A stretch of DNA of 44,157 nt from Clostridia bacterium (GTDB lineage: Bacteria; Bacillota; Clostridia; Christensenellales; Aristaeellaceae). Position numbers and translations under genes: made by a program. Below are positions 10,768 through 18,835 of the stretch, in pieces (the first letter of the stretch is position 1; each line of letters opens with the position of its first letter). Where the stretch lies: assembly GCA_017552535.1 (NCBI GenBank), contig JAFZPV010000020.1, positions 1 through 44,157 on the forward strand. The letters are read 5' to 3'. The notes beneath the pieces were generated by a model that was not told the DNA's origin, made no database searches, and was given only the letters and a program-made list of their open reading frames with translations.

Positions 10768-10819
10768 GGATATTGTATGATATGATGGTTTTACATTGAT
10801 ATGGAAAGAGGGTGCCGTA

Positions 10820-11668
10820 ATGACATTTAAAAGAGGCATTTACTCTACAACGTTAGATGATAACGAGCTGTATTCAATAGAGTATCAATCAACTCGGGAA
10901 GATGCACATGTCAGTCATATAAGAGGTGCACTGTGTTTAACTTTAGATGATTTCTTTAGAGAATTATCAGCTTCAATGCGTTTTCCAGACTATTTTGGTT
11001 GGAATTGGGCTGCTTTTGATGAATGCATCACAGACCTTGAATGGCTAAAGTTTAAAAGTATACAAATAGTGATCGATCATTATGAGCTTATGTTCAGAGC
11101 TGAAAGAGATGAAGAAGAAAGGAAACGACAGCTTTCACTGTTACAAAAGTATCTTGATATTGCATTGCGTTTTTGGGAAAGTCAGGGAGTAGCGTTTTCG
11201 GTCATTATAAACTCTGAAAAAGAAGAACCATCAGATATTTTTCGCGGGAATCGAATTGAGAAAAGAAAATTGGCTTTAAAGAACGAGGATAACCAGCTTG
11301 AGCTGACGCTTAAACGCCTTGATTACGACCTGTGCGTGTGCAGGCTCAGGAGCCTGGCGGAAGCGGACCTGACCCGGGCGTTCTTTTTTCTTGCCAGGAC
11401 GGACGAAGAGATATCCCTGGTGTGCGAAAGCGCTTTTGCGCCCGCCGGCGCCGAACAGATCAACCGCGGCTGGAAAGGCTTCCGGATCGAGGGCGTGCTG
11501 GATTTTTCCCTGGTGGGCATACTGGCCCGCCTGTCCGGCCTGCTGGCGGAAAACGGCGTGAGCATCTTTGCCGTATCCACGTTCAACACGGACTATATCC
11601 TGGTAAAGGAAAACGACTTTTCCCGGGCGGCGAAGATACTGGCCACCTCGGGCTATACGGTAAACTGA
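10820..11668 (+). CDS. Chimeric protein: barstar-like domain fused to an ACT-like domain
   Basis: This 282-aa protein has two unrelated halves. Residues about 30-150 match the barstar (RNase inhibitor) family: LTLDDFFRELSASMRFPDYFGWNWAAFDECITDLEW-type sequence, with the hallmark PDYFGWNW at 56-63. From about residue 160 it is a CASTOR-like ACT-domain protein (DYDLCVCRL, FRIEGVLDFSLVGILARLSGLL, SIFAVSTFNTDYILVK). The DNA changes abruptly: a 60-base sample at 10861-10920 holds 23 G+C, one at 11461-11520 holds 37. The switch lies near 11280-11310, just where a stand-alone ACT gene would begin. The ATG at 10820 follows AGAGGG. No barnase-type RNase is nearby. An assembly chimera is the main alternative to a real fusion. 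Confidence 0.8.
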   Translation: MTFKRGIYSTTLDDNELYSIEYQSTREDAHVSHIRGALCLTLDDFFRELSASMRFPDYFGWNWAAFDECITDLEWLKFKSIQIVIDHYELMFRAERDEEERKRQLSLLQKYLDIALRFWESQGVAFSVIINSEKEEPSDIFRGNRIEKRKLALKNEDNQLELTLKRLDYDLCVCRLRSLAEADLTRAFFFLARTDEEISLVCESAFAPAGAEQINRGWKGFRIEGVLDFSLVGILARLSGLLAENGVSIFAVSTFNTDYILVKENDFSRAAKILATSGYTVN

Positions 11669-11696: not shown

Positions 11697-12893
11697 ATGA
11701 AAAAGCTCACCTCCTACAACCATACCATATACGCCAGCTATATCGGCTACATCACCCAGGCTGCGGTGAACAACTTTGCGCCGCTTCTGTTTTTGACGTT
11801 CAGCCGGGAGTTCCGTCTTACGCTTGCCCAGCTCACGCTGATCACTACCGTGAACTTTTCCGTGCAGCTGCTGGTGGACCTTCTGTCCGCCCGTTTTGTG
11901 GACAGAATCGGCTACCGCGCCTGCGCGGTGGCAGCGCATGTGTTTTCCGCGCTGGGCCTGGCGGGGCTGGCCGTTCTGCCCGGGCTGCTGCCCGCCTACG
12001 CCGGGATTCTGACAGCCGTCGTCCTGTACGCGGTGGGCGGCGGGCTGATCGAAGTGCTCATCAGTCCCATCGTGGAAGCCTGCCCCACACAAAAAAAGGA
12101 GGCTGCCATGAGCCTTCTGCATTCCTTTTACTGCTGGGGCCACATGGCGGTCATCCTGCTGAGCACGCTGTTTTTCTCCCTGGCGGGCATAAGCCATTGG
12201 CGCGTGCTGGCGCTTATATGGGCGCTGGTGCCGCTTTTCAACAGCTATTATTTTTCGCGCGTTCCTTTGTATTCCGTCACCCACGGCGAGAAAGCGCTGA
12301 GCCTGGGCAGCCTGTTCAGGATGAAGGTGTTCTGGCTGCTCATGGCGCTCATGGTGTGCGCCGGCGCCAGCGAGCAGGCCATGAGCCAGTGGGCCAGCGC
12401 CTTTGCGGAAAGCGCCCTTAACCTCAGCAAGGCCGCGGGCGACCTGGCCGGGCCCTGTACCTTTGCGCTGTTCATGGGCACGGCCCGGGCCCTGTACGGC
12501 CGGTTCAGCGATAAGCTGCCCCTTAAAAAAGCCATGACGCTTTGCGCGCTTTTGTGCGTATGCGCCTACCTCGCGGTGACCCTCACAGACGCGCCGGCCA
12601 TCGGGCTTGCAGGCTGTGCGCTGTGCGGTTTTTCCGTGGGCATATTCTGGCCGGGCACGTTCTCCGTGGCCGCCGTTTCTCTTCCCCAGGGCGGCACCGC
12701 CATGTACGCCCTCATGGCCCTGGCAGGAGATGTGGGCTGCTCAGGCGGTCCCACCCTCGCAGGCCTGCTCGCCAGCTATGCGGACGGAAACCTGAAAACC
12801 GGGCTTCTGGCCGCCATTGTATTCCCGCTTTTCATCATTCTGGGCGTAAGGCTCCTCCGCTCACATCCTACCGCACCTGGCCCGTCCCGCTGA
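11697..12893 (+). CDS. MFS transporter
   Basis: This 398-aa integral membrane protein shows about twelve hydrophobic segments in the two-times-six arrangement of the major facilitator superfamily, with the cytoplasmic loop LLSARFVDRIGYRACA after the second helix and a related RALYGRFSDKLPLKKA in the second half. Both are the MFS loop signature in modified form. The substrate is unknown; the overall look is of sugar/fucose-permease-like or drug-efflux relatives. It starts 28 nt after the barstar-ACT gene and may be cotranscribed. Its last 26 nt overlap the 3' end of proA on the opposite strand, so the two genes end tail to tail without room for a terminator. Confidence 0.88.
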   Translation: MKKLTSYNHTIYASYIGYITQAAVNNFAPLLFLTFSREFRLTLAQLTLITTVNFSVQLLVDLLSARFVDRIGYRACAVAAHVFSALGLAGLAVLPGLLPAYAGILTAVVLYAVGGGLIEVLISPIVEACPTQKKEAAMSLLHSFYCWGHMAVILLSTLFFSLAGISHWRVLALIWALVPLFNSYYFSRVPLYSVTHGEKALSLGSLFRMKVFWLLMALMVCAGASEQAMSQWASAFAESALNLSKAAGDLAGPCTFALFMGTARALYGRFSDKLPLKKAMTLCALLCVCAYLAVTLTDAPAIGLAGCALCGFSVGIFWPGTFSVAAVSLPQGGTAMYALMALAGDVGCSGGPTLAGLLASYADGNLKTGLLAAIVFPLFIILGVRLLRSHPTAPGPSR

Positions 12894-14115
12894 TCACGTA
12901 TTTCCAGCTGGTCATTTCCTCCAGGCCCATGGGCCCGCGGGCGTGCAGCTTCTGGGTGGATATGCCGATCTCCGCGCCCAGGCCGAACTCGCCGCCGTCG
13001 GTAAAGCGGGTGGAGGCGTTCCAGTATACCGCCGCCGCGTCCACTTCGTTCAAAAACCTTTCGGCGCGGGCGGCGTCTTTGGTAACGATGCACTCGCTGT
13101 GCTGGGTACCGTGGCGGGCGATGAAATCAAGGGCCTCGTCCAGGCCTTTCACCGTTTTGACCGCCAGGGTATAATCCCCGAATTCCGTATCCCAGTCTTC
13201 CTCACAGGCGCTTTCGGCCCGGCTGCCCAGAAGCGCCTTCGCTTTTTCGTCCGCGCGCAAGACCACGTTTTTCTGATCCAGCAGCGGCAGCGCCTTTTTC
13301 CAGAATTCCGGAGCGATATTTTCGTGCACCAGCACGCATTCCGCCGCGTTGCACACCGACGGACGGGAGCACTTGGCGTTGAACAGGATGCTTGCCGCCA
13401 TGTCCAAGTCGGCGTTTTCGTCCACGTACACGTGGCACACGCCTTCGCCCGTGCGGATCACCGGCACGCTGGACTGGCTGGTCACGGCCCGGATGAGGCC
13501 CGCGCCGCCCCGGGGGATCAGCACGTCCACGTAGGCGTTCAGGCGCATCAGCTCCTGGGCGCTTTCGCGGCTCGTATCCTTGACCAGCTGTATGCAGTCC
13601 GCGGGAAGGCCCGCTTTTTGAAGCGCCCCGCGCATGATCTTTTCCGCCGCCAGGTTGGAACGGATGGCTTCCTTCCCGCCCCGCAGGATGCAGGCGTTTC
13701 CGCTCTTTAAGCACAGCGCCGCCGCGTCCACGGTGACGTTGGGCCGGGCTTCGTAGATGATGCCGATCACGCCCAGCGGCACGCGCTTTTTCCTTATCAC
13801 CAGGCCGTTGGGCCGTACGTTCTCGCTGATGGTCTCTCCCACAGGATCGGGAAGCGCCGCCGCCTGCCGAACGCCGTCCGCAACGCCCTTCACCCGGCCG
13901 GGCGTCAGGGCGAGACGGTCCAGGAGGGATTCCTTCATGCCCGCGCGCTTCGCTTCTTCGATGTCCTGCTGGTTCGCTTTCAGCCATTCGCCCATGTTTT
14001 CTTCCAGCGCGTCCGCGATGGAAAGAAGCGCCCGGTTTTTGACGTCCGTAGTCGCGATGGAAAGCGCGCGCGCGGCTTCCTTTGCCAAAAGGCCCTGTTT
14101 TTCCAGTTCAGTCAT
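12868..14115 (-). CDS. proA: Gamma-glutamyl phosphate reductase
   Basis: This 415-aa NADPH-dependent enzyme reduces glutamyl-5-phosphate to glutamate-5-semialdehyde, the second step of proline synthesis. Family landmarks are RKKRVPLGVIGIIYEARPNVTVDAA, GNACILRGGKEA, the catalytic Cys in TGEGVCHVYVD, and the C-terminal NASTRFTDGGEFGLGAEIGIS with LHARGPMGLEE (quoted in parts). The start overlaps the proB 3' end by 8 nt, so the pair is translationally coupled, and it is the last gene of the nine-gene minus-strand run. Its 3' end overlaps the convergent MFS gene by 26 nt. Confidence 0.97.
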   Translation of the reverse strand: MTELEKQGLLAKEAARALSIATTDVKNRALLSIADALEENMGEWLKANQQDIEEAKRAGMKESLLDRLALTPGRVKGVADGVRQAAALPDPVGETISENVRPNGLVIRKKRVPLGVIGIIYEARPNVTVDAAALCLKSGNACILRGGKEAIRSNLAAEKIMRGALQKAGLPADCIQLVKDTSRESAQELMRLNAYVDVLIPRGGAGLIRAVTSQSSVPVIRTGEGVCHVYVDENADLDMAASILFNAKCSRPSVCNAAECVLVHENIAPEFWKKALPLLDQKNVVLRADEKAKALLGSRAESACEEDWDTEFGDYTLAVKTVKGLDEALDFIARHGTQHSECIVTKDAARAERFLNEVDAAAVYWNASTRFTDGGEFGLGAEIGISTQKLHARGPMGLEEMTSWKYVISGTGQVR

Positions 14116-14920
14116 TTTTCTTTCTCCCCGCCTTGAACAGCGTGCCCACTTCTTTGCCCTCCAGAATGTCGTACAGGCTCTCCGGGTGCTTGCCGTGGGT
14201 GATGATCATGTCGCAGCCCGCCCCGGTGGCGATGCGCGCCGCAGACAGTTTGGTGGCCATGCCGCCGGTGCCCCGCCAGGTGCCCGCGCCGCCCGCCATG
14301 TTCAGGATCTCGGGCGTGAGCGCCTCCACGCAGCGGATGAGCCGGGCGGAGGGGTTTTCCCGGGGATCGGAGTCGTACAGGCCTTCGATGTCGCTGAGCA
14401 GCACCAGCAGGTCCGCCTTGCACAGCCCTGCCACGATGGCGGACAGTGTGTCGTTGTCGCCCAGTACCCGGTGCTGGCCGGTCTCGATCTCGGCGGCGGA
14501 AACGGAGTCGTTTTCGTTCACCACCGGGATCACGCCCATCTCCAGCAGCGAACCGAAGGTGGAGCGCAGGTGTCGGGCACGGGCTTCGTCCTCCACGTCG
14601 TCGCCGGTCAGAAGGATCTGGGCCACCGTGCAGTTGTACTCCGAAAACAGCTTGTCGTAGATGTACATCATGCGGCACTGGCCCACAGCGGCGGCCGCCT
14701 GCTTGACCCTGAGCTCCTTCGGGCGCTCGGCAAGCCCCAGTTTGGAAGTGCCCACGGCGATGGCGCCGGAGGAGACCAGTATCAGCTCCAGTCCGCTGCC
14801 CCTAAGGTCCGCCATCACCCGGGTCAGGCGCTCGATGCTCCTTAAATCCAGAGAACCGTTCGGATGGGTGAGGGTGGAGGTGCCAACCTTTACCACGATT
14901 CGTTTTTTCGTTCCGTTCAC
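14108..14920 (-). CDS. proB: Glutamate 5-kinase, short form
   Basis: This 270-aa amino-acid kinase phosphorylates glutamate, the first and feedback-controlled step of proline synthesis. It shows KRIVVKVGTSTLT at the N-terminus, LVSSGAIAVG, VNENDSVS, FGDNDTLSAIVAGL-type sequence (here LGDNDTLSA) and GGMATKLSAARIA. It lacks the C-terminal PUA domain of the longer ProB proteins and is therefore the compact type. The GTG at 14920 is chosen because GGGGAG lies 8 nt upstream; an in-frame TTG at 14938 is possible but has no ribosome binding site. It is followed directly by proA. Confidence 0.95.
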   Translation of the reverse strand: MNGTKKRIVVKVGTSTLTHPNGSLDLRSIERLTRVMADLRGSGLELILVSSGAIAVGTSKLGLAERPKELRVKQAAAAVGQCRMMYIYDKLFSEYNCTVAQILLTGDDVEDEARARHLRSTFGSLLEMGVIPVVNENDSVSAAEIETGQHRVLGDNDTLSAIVAGLCKADLLVLLSDIEGLYDSDPRENPSARLIRCVEALTPEILNMAGGAGTWRGTGGMATKLSAARIATGAGCDMIITHGKHPESLYDILEGKEVGTLFKAGRKKND

Positions 14921-14982
14921 GTTTATTTCTCCCCGCAAGGGCCGTTTCGCTCCCTGCTGTCTGTTTTTATTCCGGCTGCTGT

Positions 14983-17439
14983 TCAGCTTTCGCTTGTTTT
15001 TGAAAGCCCCATCTGCTGCAAAAAGTCATACACGTCCGTCATCGACTTTACGTAGCCCTCCAGCAGCTTTGCCTTCGCCGCCAGCGTCCGGGAGCGGGCG
15101 GCGATAAAGATGGAGCATTTGTTGCGGGCGTTGCGCGCCTCCTGTATGAGGTTGAGCACCGCGGAGTTGCCGCCGAATGCCAGCACCGCGGAAGGCGAAT
15201 GCTTGAATACCTCGTAGGCAAAGCTCTTGTACAGGCCCATGGGCGAAGACTCGATGGATACGATCACCCCGGGCGCCGTCTGGCGAAGCTTTCTTTTCTC
15301 TGAAGCGGAGACGAGGCTCGGCACGATGGCCGTGAGCGAGAACCGTCCCTTTGCCCTCTGCGCAAGATACCCTTCCGCGCCGCTCAGCGTGTGCCCCACC
15401 ACGAAGGACACCTTATCCGGGTCCGCGAGGGCAAGCAGGCGGTCGATAAAGGCTTTATCCTCGTCCCGCAGGCGGGCCTTCTGTCCACCGGTCTGAAAGC
15501 TTCCGCCGCCGATCACAATTGGGAACCTGCCTTCGGGAAGGGAACGAAGAAGCTCTTTCAGGGCCTCGTGTGCGCTCTGCTTGCCGGAACCTTGCCAGAG
15601 ATCTCCGGAAACGGGCGGCGTTTTTTCCAGCTTTTCAAGATAATATCGTTCGATGTCGCCTCCGGGCAGGGCGGCGCGGAACGCTTTATTCTTTTCTTCA
15701 AACGTATCCAGGCTGTCCCGCAAGATGGCGTCCTCCGAGCGGCGCATGCATCTGAGCTCCTCGTGGCTCAGGCCCAGCAGTTTTTCCAGGCTCAGCTCCT
15801 CGTCGATGGAGTTCGTGCCGTACAGCGCGCCGCCGTCCGTGCCCTGCACGCAGCTGATGCCGGCGCGCAGGTACTGCTGCAGCGGGTGCCGGTCCAGATG
15901 GCTCAGGTTGTTCAGGCGCACGTTGGAGGTGATCTGGAATTCCAGCGTCACGCCGTAGGCGAGCATGTCCTCCAGCAGCCTTCTGCCCCGGGCGGAGCGC
16001 AAATCGCAGGTATACAGGCCGTGGCCGATGCGCAGATGAGGCGGCCTTTCCCCGTCTTTGAGCGCCTCCGCCACGCAGCGGATAGAGCCGGCCACATTGT
16101 CCGGCAGGCTGTCATTTTCGCCCGCGTGTATGCGGATCACGAAGCCGGGAGCGCCCCGGGCGATGTCCACCATCTCCCGTATCGCGACGCGCAGCTCCAT
16201 GATGTCGTTGATCTCTTCGCCGATGATGTCGCAGCCTGCTACGTAGGGGTCAGAGGAAGCGCACCTTAAGCATCTCAGGTTTTCGTTCAGGTAGTCTCCG
16301 GGCGCCACCCGGTCGCGCACGATGGTGAGGGGCGTGCGGCGTATGCCCGCCAGAAAGCGCAGCGTGACGCCGGTCTCCCGCGTAACGGCGGGCATGATGC
16401 TGTGGATCATGCGCAGCCGCCCGGCAAACTGCTTTACGTCCGCCAATGCAGTATCGCTGATCTCGGCGTACACCACGCCCTGCTTCTGGTATTCCCGGGC
16501 GATCCACAAAAGCAGGTCCTGGTACAGGGTGTTGCCGCGGTAGCGGTCATCTTCCCGGTCCAAAAGCATGCGCCGGGCATAGGCTTTTACCTCCCTGTCC
16601 GGGATCTCCTCGATGTTCAGCCCGCTGAACCGCTCGTCCGACGGGACGCCCTTGGTGAACACGTAGCGGTACAGGTACACCTTTTCCAGGTCCGCGAACA
16701 CCGCCTGCCCGTCCTTGGGGATGGTGAGGGAGGAACGGATCAGGTCTATGTTTTCGGCGGCAGAAGCGGGATTGCCCAGGATCAGCTCGGCAAAATTGAT
16801 GAATGTCAGGTCGTCTATGCGCCTTTGGCGGTGCCTGCCCGTAAGGGAAATGTCTCCGAGCTCTGCCTCCGTCTGCTTTCTCTTTTCTTCCAGAAAGCGG
16901 ATCTGCCCGGGGGAGCATGCAAGCCCCAGCTTTTTGACGTAATAGTACGGGTAGCGGATCTGGTGTATCACCCCCAGGGCGATCAGCGCGTCCGGGGGCA
17001 GGTTGCCGTTCATATGGGTATGCAGGTCGGTGCGGAATTTGCAGTCGGAGAAGATATAGGTCTTTACGATGGTCTTTTCCACGCCCAGACGGTAATCCTT
17101 GGTCTGGCTCATGAGCGTTTTGGAAATGGCCGGTATGGAGGCCTTGAGCTCTATGCGCCCGTCCGGATGGATGTTGGCGATCTTGGTGTTGCCGAGCCTG
17201 AGTACGTACAGGCGGCGGTTGTCGCCGTCCACGTAGCAGGGCACTTCGCCCTTGATGACCTTGAGGCCGTGTTCGTCGAAGGATATATCCAGCGCGCACA
17301 GGCGGGCCAGGTTCGTGATGAGGTTTCCGGTATGGTGGTTGGGCGTGCGGATCACGTACTTCAGGCGTTCGCCGTCCATGTGCAGCTCCACCGCGATATC
17401 CTTTTCCCGGTCCAGGTAAAAGCGCCCGAAAAAGATCAT
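14983..17439 (-). CDS. Large adenosine/AMP-deaminase-like protein with C-terminal Rossmann (SLOG-like) domain
   Basis: This 818-aa protein has a unique N-terminal domain (about 1-125). A metal-dependent deaminase core of the adenosine deaminase family follows: H140-T-H142 in DLHTHMNG, H438-A-G-E441, H473 in RIGHG, TSNVRLNNL, and D535 in GTDGG. Last comes a Rossmann-like domain from about 636 (VIGGGSFQTGG, VVGHTLSGAEGYLAQRA, VLAFGGNSAVLNLI, FIAAR) that resembles SLOG/LOG nucleotide-binding folds. Zinc ligands and the catalytic Glu are present, but the second Asp of the usual TDDP is Gly. It is about twice the length of housekeeping Add. The ATG at 17439 has a perfect AGGAGG; it lies 22 nt after the MATE stop, so the two are likely cotranscribed. 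Substrate and role are unknown; nucleotide signalling or defence is a hypothesis. Confidence 0.8.
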   Translation of the reverse strand: MIFFGRFYLDREKDIAVELHMDGERLKYVIRTPNHHTGNLITNLARLCALDISFDEHGLKVIKGEVPCYVDGDNRRLYVLRLGNTKIANIHPDGRIELKASIPAISKTLMSQTKDYRLGVEKTIVKTYIFSDCKFRTDLHTHMNGNLPPDALIALGVIHQIRYPYYYVKKLGLACSPGQIRFLEEKRKQTEAELGDISLTGRHRQRRIDDLTFINFAELILGNPASAAENIDLIRSSLTIPKDGQAVFADLEKVYLYRYVFTKGVPSDERFSGLNIEEIPDREVKAYARRMLLDREDDRYRGNTLYQDLLLWIAREYQKQGVVYAEISDTALADVKQFAGRLRMIHSIMPAVTRETGVTLRFLAGIRRTPLTIVRDRVAPGDYLNENLRCLRCASSDPYVAGCDIIGEEINDIMELRVAIREMVDIARGAPGFVIRIHAGENDSLPDNVAGSIRCVAEALKDGERPPHLRIGHGLYTCDLRSARGRRLLEDMLAYGVTLEFQITSNVRLNNLSHLDRHPLQQYLRAGISCVQGTDGGALYGTNSIDEELSLEKLLGLSHEELRCMRRSEDAILRDSLDTFEEKNKAFRAALPGGDIERYYLEKLEKTPPVSGDLWQGSGKQSAHEALKELLRSLPEGRFPIVIGGGSFQTGGQKARLRDEDKAFIDRLLALADPDKVSFVVGHTLSGAEGYLAQRAKGRFSLTAIVPSLVSASEKRKLRQTAPGVIVSIESSPMGLYKSFAYEVFKHSPSAVLAFGGNSAVLNLIQEARNARNKCSIFIAARSRTLAAKAKLLEGYVKSMTDVYDFLQQMGLSKTSES

Positions 17440-17461
17440 CTCAGCCCTCCTTTGTTCCATT

Positions 17462-18835
17462 TCAGCTGTCCGTGCGGGGCAGCCGCTTCCGGCTGCAGAT
17501 CAGGTAGCACACCATGTGCGCCGCGAAGGTGACTGCCCAGGACACGGGGTAGGAAAGGTACAGAACCTCCAGCGTATGGTACGCCGGTATGCTGAACAGC
17601 GTCCATATCCATATCAGCCTAAGCGCGCAGGCGCCTGTCAGTGAAACGATCATCGGCATGACGGAGTAGCCGATGCCGCGCAGCTGGCCCACCATCACGT
17701 CCATCAGCCCGCACAGGAAATACGTGGGCATCAGGATCAGCATGCGCTTGAGGCCATAGAAGATCACGTCCTCCGACGCGTTGTATATGGACAGAAGCTG
17801 CCTGTCGAAGACGATGAACAAAAGCCCCATGGTCAAGCCGATCGCCGTTGCCGCGCCCAGGCAGCACCACAGCACTTTCCTGACGCGCCCGTAGCGGCGG
17901 GCGCCGTAGTTCTGGCTGGCAAAGGTGATGTCCGCCTGGTGGATGGCGTTCATGGCCGTATACACGAAGCCCTCCAGGTTGCCGGCGTTGGTGTTGCCCG
18001 CCATGGCCATGGAGCCGAAGGAGTTGACGGAGGTCTGTATCAGCACGTTGCTGATGGAAAACACGCTGCCCTGCAGCCCCGCCGGAAGGCCGATCCTGAG
18101 TATGCTCTTCATGCATTCCCGGTCCACGCCCAGGCGGCGGATATCCAGGTGCACGCAGGTGGAGGACTTCATCAGGCAGCGGATCACCAGAAAAGCGCTG
18201 ATCAGCTGGCTGGCTACCGTAGCGATCGCCACGCCCGCCACGTCCATGCGGAACACGATCACCAGCAGCAGGTTCAAAAGCACGTTCACCAGCCCCGACA
18301 GCGAAAGATAATACATGGGCCGCCGGGTGTCTCCCACCGCCCGCAATACCGCCGCGCCGAAATTGTACAGCATGTTTACCGGCATGCCCGCGAAGTATAT
18401 GCGTATATAGGTGGACGCGAGATCAATCACGTCTTCCGGCGAATCCATCAGCCGAAGCAGCCGCTTGGCCATCACAAAACCGAAAAGGCCCACCGTGAGG
18501 CCGGAAAACAGCGCCAGGGTGACGGCAGTGTGAACGGCCTTCTGTACCTTCGCCACGTCGCCCGCGCCGTAGCAGCGGGCCACCAGCACCGACGCGCCCA
18601 CGCTCAGGCCCATGAACACGTTTACCAGCAGGTTGATCAGCGAGCCCGTGGAGCCTACCGCCGCCTGAGACTGGGAGGAAGCAAATCTTCCCACCACCAC
18701 GATGTCCGCCGCGTTGTAGAGCAATTGCAGCATGCCCATCAGCACCAGCGGACCTGAAAAGCTCAGGATCTTCGTCAGAAGCGGTCCCGAGGTCATGTCC
18801 ATTTCGTAGCGGGATGAAGAGCGTTGTTTGTTCAT
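17462..18835 (-). CDS. MATE family efflux transporter
   Basis: This 457-aa polytopic membrane protein has about twelve hydrophobic segments in two homologous halves. MATE landmarks include the N-terminal GPLLTKILSFSGPLVLMGMLQ, AAVGSTGSLINLLVNVFMGLSVGASVLVARCYGAGD (quoted in parts) and the repeated LVxASQxYGARRYGRV-type loop seen as FASQNYGARRYGRV. Such proteins export cationic drugs or metabolites using Na+ or H+. The start has AGAGGA upstream. It sits between the DUF2974-type hydrolase and the deaminase-like gene with gaps of 36 and 22 nt. A shared function with the deaminase is possible but not shown. Confidence 0.92.
   Translation of the reverse strand: MNKQRSSSRYEMDMTSGPLLTKILSFSGPLVLMGMLQLLYNAADIVVVGRFASSQSQAAVGSTGSLINLLVNVFMGLSVGASVLVARCYGAGDVAKVQKAVHTAVTLALFSGLTVGLFGFVMAKRLLRLMDSPEDVIDLASTYIRIYFAGMPVNMLYNFGAAVLRAVGDTRRPMYYLSLSGLVNVLLNLLLVIVFRMDVAGVAIATVASQLISAFLVIRCLMKSSTCVHLDIRRLGVDRECMKSILRIGLPAGLQGSVFSISNVLIQTSVNSFGSMAMAGNTNAGNLEGFVYTAMNAIHQADITFASQNYGARRYGRVRKVLWCCLGAATAIGLTMGLLFIVFDRQLLSIYNASEDVIFYGLKRMLILMPTYFLCGLMDVMVGQLRGIGYSVMPMIVSLTGACALRLIWIWTLFSIPAYHTLEVLYLSYPVSWAVTFAAHMVCYLICSRKRLPRTDS

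Follow-up and report, generated by a model that had tools for sequence, protein, structure and literature searches.

Enzymes of the adenosine deaminase (ADA) fold that carry a sensor domain in the same chain are already known, as are effector enzymes switched by a C-terminal SLOG domain. In Cad1 (CAAD) of type III CRISPR systems, a CARF domain gates the deaminase, and the TaqCad1 enzyme converts ATP to ITP without deaminating adenosine (PMC12669630). RdrB, a large ADA-fold protein of the RADAR system, acts on ATP and dATP and not significantly on AMP or adenosine; its N-terminal extension and insertion form a two-fold interface of its shell (PMC9994260). In ThsA, the SIR2-SLOG protein of type I Thoeris, the C-terminal SLOG domain binds a cyclic ADP-ribose isomer and then switches the sirtuin (PMC12948488, PMC9503650, PMC7272460). 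The gene described here occupies positions 14983..17439 on the minus strand of a 44,157-base contig (JAFZPV010000020.1, analyzed at its full length and referred to below as the window) in a 2.39-Mb draft genome of a Clostridia bacterium, 76.7% complete. As judged from its translation, Pfam matches, and alignment, the gene is complete and encodes 818 amino acid residues comprising an N-terminal domain, an interrupted ADA-type deaminase, and a C-terminal SLOG-like domain. Similarly to Cad1, it combines an ADA-fold deaminase in one chain with a Rossmannoid domain, here a putative ligand binder; similarly to ThsA, the effector enzyme comes first and the SLOG-like domain last. In contrast to Cad1, where the CARF domain is N-terminal, the sensor-like domain is C-terminal and the barrel carries an insertion of ∼140 residues; in contrast to ThsA, the enzyme is a deaminase and not a sirtuin-like NADase. 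What would be new is the joining of a SLOG-type sensor to an ADA-fold nucleotide deaminase. A literature search on SLOG or LSDAT domains together with deaminases showed no such fusion among the titles and openings of abstracts listed, and it may have been published earlier.

The proposed reading is that of a stand-alone enzyme, a nucleotide deaminase whose ligand-sensing domain is part of the same chain; the sequence comparisons described below lend it about an even chance. The ADA-type metal centre would deaminate an adenine nucleotide, converting adenine to hypoxanthine, in a pocket that would accept an adenine nucleotide with a 5' phosphate or some other modification, either ATP/dATP-like or an ADP-ribose derivative. 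The SLOG domain would bind a small nucleotide and switch the deaminase, in the manner of CARF in Cad1 and SLOG in ThsA, and the insertion and the N-terminal domain would serve oligomer contacts, as do the RdrB insertions. A role in nucleotide-pool or stress signaling is more likely than dedicated phage defence. In a more specific and unlikely version, the protein would be a partner-free switch in a single chain: a TRPM-type SLOG domain would detect an ADP-ribose-like signal or some other nucleotide signal and thereby control a deaminase of the ATP/dATP type, so that a nucleotide alarm in gut Clostridia would be converted into an altered adenine pool.

The initial annotation, made from the sequence alone, had given the coordinates and length correctly, but the gene has to be read on the minus strand, where the frame is terminated by a stop codon, whereas the plus-strand reading is interrupted by stops. 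Translation starts at 17439, with AAAGGAGG six bases 5' of the start; an alternative in-frame ATG at 17460 has no such upstream AAAGGAGG. At third positions, the gene has a G+C content of 0.80, similar to the values of 0.77 to 0.88 in seven other measured genes of the window. A pattern-based scan of an 84,980-species collection yielded 120 relatives; the 80 best were retained and come from entries titled Clostridia, Lachnospiraceae, Oscillospiraceae, Erysipelotrichia, and similar, many of them from the rumen or gut. The alignment used throughout consists of 60 proteins, the window protein and its relatives from 59 of these loci, while the remaining 21 were cut off, had no single frame (7 of the 80), or were removed by thinning of the set. 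The 59 aligned relatives are 46 to 71% identical to the window protein over its length. A chance open reading frame (ORF) is excluded because there are 80 homologous loci with full-length identity at this level among those aligned; the gene is real and belongs to a conserved family of gut and rumen Bacillota.

A_deaminase (PF00962) is the sole Pfam family assigned to the window protein (E value of 9.8e-16; score of 58.2 bits, cut-off of 27), in line with its earlier placement among adenosine deaminases. All 60 members match it at E values of up to 0.1; Amidohydro_1 is also matched in 15 of them, and 15 further families match weakly in one to four members each. The barrel begins in residues 135 to 170 (16930..17037, minus strand) with D138-L-H140-T-H142-M-N144 and continues in residues 311 to 585 (15685..16509, minus strand), which hold H438, E441, H473, D535, and G536, the last two in a TDG motif. 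The metal ligands (H140 and H142 of the HxH motif, H438, H473, and D535) and the catalytic E441 are found where the initial annotation had put them, and are invariant in all 60 members. These ligands and the Glu are shared with adenosine deaminase (Add, PF00962); however, the window protein is more than twice as long, and the equivalents of Asp19 and Asp296 are changed.

In mouse ADA, whose numbering is used here, Asp19 binds the ribose hydroxyls and Asp296 is catalytic and required for substrate binding (PMC12669630). The Asp19 place is occupied by N144 in 58 of the 60 members, and the residue aligned with Asp296 is G536, invariant throughout. Both adenosine-anchoring Asp residues are likewise replaced in TaqCad1, by Gly264 and Asn549, and its N549D variant shows no reaction with ATP (PMC12669630). 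For a motif control, 20 loci (the distant homologue L216, described below, and 19 other ADA-like ones) were read by a script, with cases of several matches picked by eye. An acid was kept at the Asp19 site in 13 of the 14 other ADA-like ORFs with a readable HxH motif; at the Asp296 site, the 10 readable ORFs had Asn in six, Asp in three, Ser in one, and Gly in none, so that Asp or Asn was kept in nine. The combination of adenosine deaminase proper, an acid at the first site and Asp or Asn at the second, is not that of the family. The initial annotation had noted the glycine in place of the second Asp of a TDDP motif and suggested a changed substrate; the glycine is a distinctive family feature, but TDDP is not universal in the control set, which makes the contrast with it somewhat weaker than described, and the second altered anchor, N144, had been missed. 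Given that the pocket is altered at both sites that are changed in the ATP deaminase Cad1, and that RdrB likewise prefers ATP and dATP, a nucleotide substrate is expected instead of adenosine; by this analogy, a changed specificity of that kind is plausible.

The same data bear on another alternative, namely, that the protein is a plain adenosine deaminase of purine salvage whose extra domains are incidental. The A_deaminase match far above its cut-off speaks for it, and NCBIfam adenosine deaminase models do match, albeit below their cut-offs. However, the equivalog model, whose cut-off is 216.55 bits, gives a score of 44, the aligned family has other residues in place of both adenosine-anchoring acids, and the N-terminal domain, the insertion, and the C-terminal domain are each conserved within it, all of which makes this alternative very improbable.

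The C-terminal part (residues 637 to 800; 15040..15531, minus strand) is a putative SLOG-like Rossmannoid domain with the motifs PIVIGGGSF, FVVGH..GAE, AIVP, IVSIESSPMGLYKSF, and AFGGNS..LNLIQEA, and has 22 residues that are invariant in all 60 members. Its assignment depends on two-step homology through the distant homologue L216, a lone ADA-SLOG protein of 783 residues from the 1.2-Mb genome G811 (locus also listed as L222), which is 26% identical to the window protein and keeps the HTH, HAGE, and TDG motifs of the deaminase along with the C-terminal domain. A search of 88 genomes of its host family, its own included, gave a single other match, weak and ADA-like. In a search of 5,679 frames, a profile of the family C terminus built without L216 matched the L216 domain with an E value of 1e-7 over positions 25 to 207 of 208; the next match outside the family's loci was at 0.006. 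The L216 C terminus, in turn, matched only LSDAT_prok (PF18171, "SLOG in TRPM, prokaryote"; E value of 6.4e-4, or 0.0069 with the whole protein) and LSDAT_euk (PF18139; E value of 0.063) in Pfam at E values of up to 10, both under the curated cut-offs. This chain from the family profile to L216 to LSDAT supports a SLOG domain, probably of the TRPM/LSDAT type, here fused to a deaminase in contrast to the LSDAT families themselves. The SLOG domain of ThsA has been placed in a different family, STALD (PMC7272460), whereas L216 matches LSDAT models. The Rossmann/SLOG-like domain of the initial annotation is supported by way of L216, under the Pfam cut-off and with no direct SLOG match.

Several observations weigh against a SLOG-gated nucleotide deaminase. 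The LSDAT_prok match of L216 reaches only 19.5 bits, compared to a cut-off of 25.4; the C-terminal slice of the window protein and 30 other such slices have no SLOG match in Pfam at E values of up to 10; the LSDAT_prok model finds nothing in the genome of the window protein; and NCBIfam has no SLOG family for L216, whole or C terminus, or for seven other C-terminal slices. With hhalign, the family C terminus aligned collinearly with the LDcluster4 SLOG set over 116 columns with a score of 20.2, compared to 21.2 for the best of the 13 unrelated families used as a control. Within the SLOG part, the window copy itself differs from its family by N649Q and D756G, and the glycine at position 536 could simply weaken the enzyme, in which case the invariant ligands would be odd. 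Of the 262 sites common to at least 54 of the 59 relatives, the window copy deviates at six: four among the 42 sites in the SLOG part (A644G, N649Q, R747H, and D756G, the last in its conserved DGNS motif) and two among the other 220 (Fisher P = 0.007, for a split chosen after looking). In this copy, the ligand pocket may have undergone drift or retuning.

Other searches with this domain gave little. The hhalign comparison with the LOG, DprA, and LDcluster4 SLOG sets was not significant and was not counted as evidence; with L216 added, LDcluster4 scored 20.8 versus 20.7 for unrelated families, and L216 alone scored 21.0 versus 19.8. In Pfam, the window C-terminal slice matched GGDEF_2 alone, with an E value of 0.09, and other slices had scattered weak matches. 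Profiles of the C-terminal and N-terminal domains gave only short or weak matches to PDB sequences, the best being a BAG6 fragment at 0.0098. When genomes were scanned with only the C-terminal profile, the matches beyond the family all had E values of 0.02 to 0.1; the one examined is, by eye, an MprF-like membrane protein and was rejected.

The main rival, possible although somewhat unlikely, is a housekeeping enzyme of nucleotide catabolism, perhaps acting in two steps, with the ADA part deaminating and the SLOG part cleaving the base from ribose phosphate as in LOG/PpnN. SLOG domains of the LOG clade do cut N-glycosidic bonds of AMP-type nucleotides (PMC9503650). The genomic surroundings provide its further support. 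Neighbors were called at 73 loci and the window, and 115 of the 132 immediate neighbors were scanned against Pfam and PADLOC; they include such ordinary chromosomal genes as those for ribosomal protein L17 and RNase Y. The recurrence of a PF00383 cytidine/guanine-type deaminase gene speaks for the same rival: among the 64 loci whose upstream sequence spans 1 kb or more, seven (L079, L083, L084, L086, L088, L091, and L093) have it upstream in the same orientation, at distances of 90 to 1,154 nucleotides, within 360 nucleotides in six of them. These loci are spread over three separate branches of the tree; the encoded protein has 153 residues, with an E value of 3.7e-30 for the L093 copy. The LOG motif, PGGxGTxxE, is absent, and the place of its acid is taken by E767 (Glu in 57 and Asp in 3 of 60 members, and Arg in L216). 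Furthermore, the SLOG families matched are of the TRPM type, not LOG, and among the three SLOG sets the hhalign score of the family profile was weakest for LOG. The condition that the initial annotation named as refuting its own reading, homologues always sitting in housekeeping purine operons, does not hold either: the family shares no common operon, although the PF00383 gene recurs at those seven loci.

The protein has two further parts. The N-terminal domain (residues 1 to 134; 17038..17439, minus strand) has 47 of its 134 sites common to at least 54 of the 59 relatives; no known family was matched in Pfam searches with members or in the PDB profile search. Outside the family's loci, the top match of the N-terminal profile was the same place in L216, with a weak E value of 0.0087 (the next was at 0.78), and this match suggests that the three-part plan of N-terminal domain, deaminase, and C-terminal domain may be old. 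The insertion (residues 171 to 310; 16510..16929, minus strand), defined from the alignment, puts ∼140 residues between the HxH motif and the third His and thereby splits the deaminase core; it is mostly missing from L216. In its size, its ADA fold, and the presence of an N-terminal extension and a core-dividing insertion, the window protein resembles RdrB, the last two by position only; the gap between the second and third His is 296 residues in the window protein and 344 in E. coli RdrB. The parts of RdrB described in the sections of PMC9994260 drawn upon here do not include a SLOG domain.

The family has a patchy distribution. Among 150 genomes of relatives, the window genome included, 21 had a match, 18 of them in the window protein's own family (17 near full length and one a fragment located where a small contig begins), while the other three were short, ADA-like, and from other families. 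Six other same-genus genomes, three of them less than 90% complete, gave no match to the gene. In wider draws, in both of which the window genome is counted, carriers numbered 2 of 398 phylum genomes and 8 of 291 class genomes, one of the latter eight carrying L216; the remaining matches (nine and five, respectively) were partial and ADA-like. In a quick tree, members from the same host family largely cluster, albeit with a degree of mixing (11 changes, compared to a shuffled mean of 24.6, in a test in which 38 of the 75 rows lacked a family name). This pattern is consistent with descent that was mostly vertical, accompanied by losses and occasional transfer. Slow, mostly vertical descent is also suggested by the full-length conservation together with the synteny shared by eight loci (see below).

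Such descent counts against an anti-phage effector of the RdrB/Cad1 kind, in which an infection signal would bind the SLOG domain and unleash deamination of ATP/dATP, poisoning the pool. The domain logic does match that of Cad1 and ThsA (PMC12669630, PMC12948488, PMC9503650, PMC7272460), and the absence from the other genomes of the genus and the variation of neighbors between loci would also fit. However, the window protein matched nothing in PADLOC at E values of up to 10, the RdrB and CARF-ADA models included, no RdrA or CRISPR model was found among the 115 neighbors at other loci (E values of up to 1e-10), and viral-contig scans by short peptide patterns with the window protein (A1) and L216 as queries found no relative. 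Membership of the window protein in RADAR RdrB or Cad1 was rejected on the PADLOC and neighbor results, and the anti-phage effector as a whole is considered quite unlikely. A dedicated defence role is possible, with nothing in the surroundings in its favor, and the defence connection proposed in the initial annotation found no backing in these searches.

Further tests in this direction were as follows. L216 matches the CARF-ADA model with an E value of 5.5e-17; as all three plain ADAs tried also match that model, this match reflects the ADA part of L216. The RdrB model had just two short, weak matches over the 398 phylum genomes (E values of 7.5e-4 and 9.6e-4; 224 and 216 residues). No CARF family was seen at E values of up to 0.1 in the 60 members; CARF_Card1 appeared at 0.45 in 1 of the 31 C-terminal slices and was taken as noise. 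Neither the window protein nor the 60 members matched a SIR2 family. PADLOC families present in the 115 neighbors were PDC-S33 in three, mad2 in two, and a GlgB model in one. No TIR domain was among the neighbor families listed (25 of 108), and the carrier genomes were not searched for TIR signal makers. In a tblastn search against plasmids and phages, the window protein matched seven plasmid and two phage records, all within residues 284 to 546 of the deaminase core. Five of these nine are annotated as adenosine deaminase or add at the matched place (Nostoc, Streptomyces sp. NBC_01643, Ilyobacter, Acinetobacter haemolyticus, and Acinetobacter phage MD-2021a, whose two records are counted once). 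L216 matched no phage and two plasmid records weakly, the better one from Novosphingobium and unannotated, and its C terminus alone had one chance plasmid match with an E value of 4.

Within the window, a gene for a MATE family transporter (17462..18835, minus strand) lies directly upstream across a gap of 22 nucleotides, and a glutamate 5-kinase (ProB)-like gene (14108..14938, minus strand) lies downstream across 44 nucleotides, followed by a ProA-like gene (12868-14115), the last two named by eye. Given the common strand and the short gaps, the gene may be co-transcribed here with its MATE and ProB-like neighbors. Co-transcription with a MATE exporter, as put forward in the initial annotation, therefore fits this locus but was rejected as a general feature, since MatE occurs in only 2 of the 115 neighbors. 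Another gene of the window (10796-11668, plus strand) codes for a 290-residue protein whose first half looks, by eye, barstar-type and whose second half looks ACT/CASTOR-like, an unusual combination.

Across the 73 loci and the window, no gene accompanies the family throughout, and this absence of a family-wide partner is counted in favor of the stand-alone reading. The widest neighbor cluster, at positions -1 to -4, covers nine loci. Eight loci share a pair of genes at +1 and +2, the product of the latter looking by eye like ribosomal protein L32; the six of these loci present in the tree form one clade. The commonest Pfam families, each in 6 of the 115 neighbors, are peptidase M23, PF00383, and MafB19-deam, the last probably in the same proteins as PF00383. 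RelA_SpoT was found in 3 of the 115. A gene for a small protein similar to RelA_SpoT alarmone synthetases (E value of 2.5e-32 for L063) is located no more than 2.2 kb upstream, in the same orientation, at L062, L063, L065, L076, and L077, and on the opposite strand at a sixth locus, L046; this proximity is possibly merely local synteny. At five loci from gut Clostridia (L074, L078, L082, L091, and L093), large proteins that by eye look like peptide synthetase condensation domains are encoded three or four genes upstream (798 and 1,144 residues in the two seen).

If the proposed reading is true, ligand-gated ADA-type deaminases would extend beyond CRISPR and RADAR, with the deaminase module having acquired a sensor of a third kind and being maintained, away from defence islands, in ordinary gut bacteria. 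A single gene would then offer both substrate choice, set by two residues, and ligand gating, set by one domain, for direct study.

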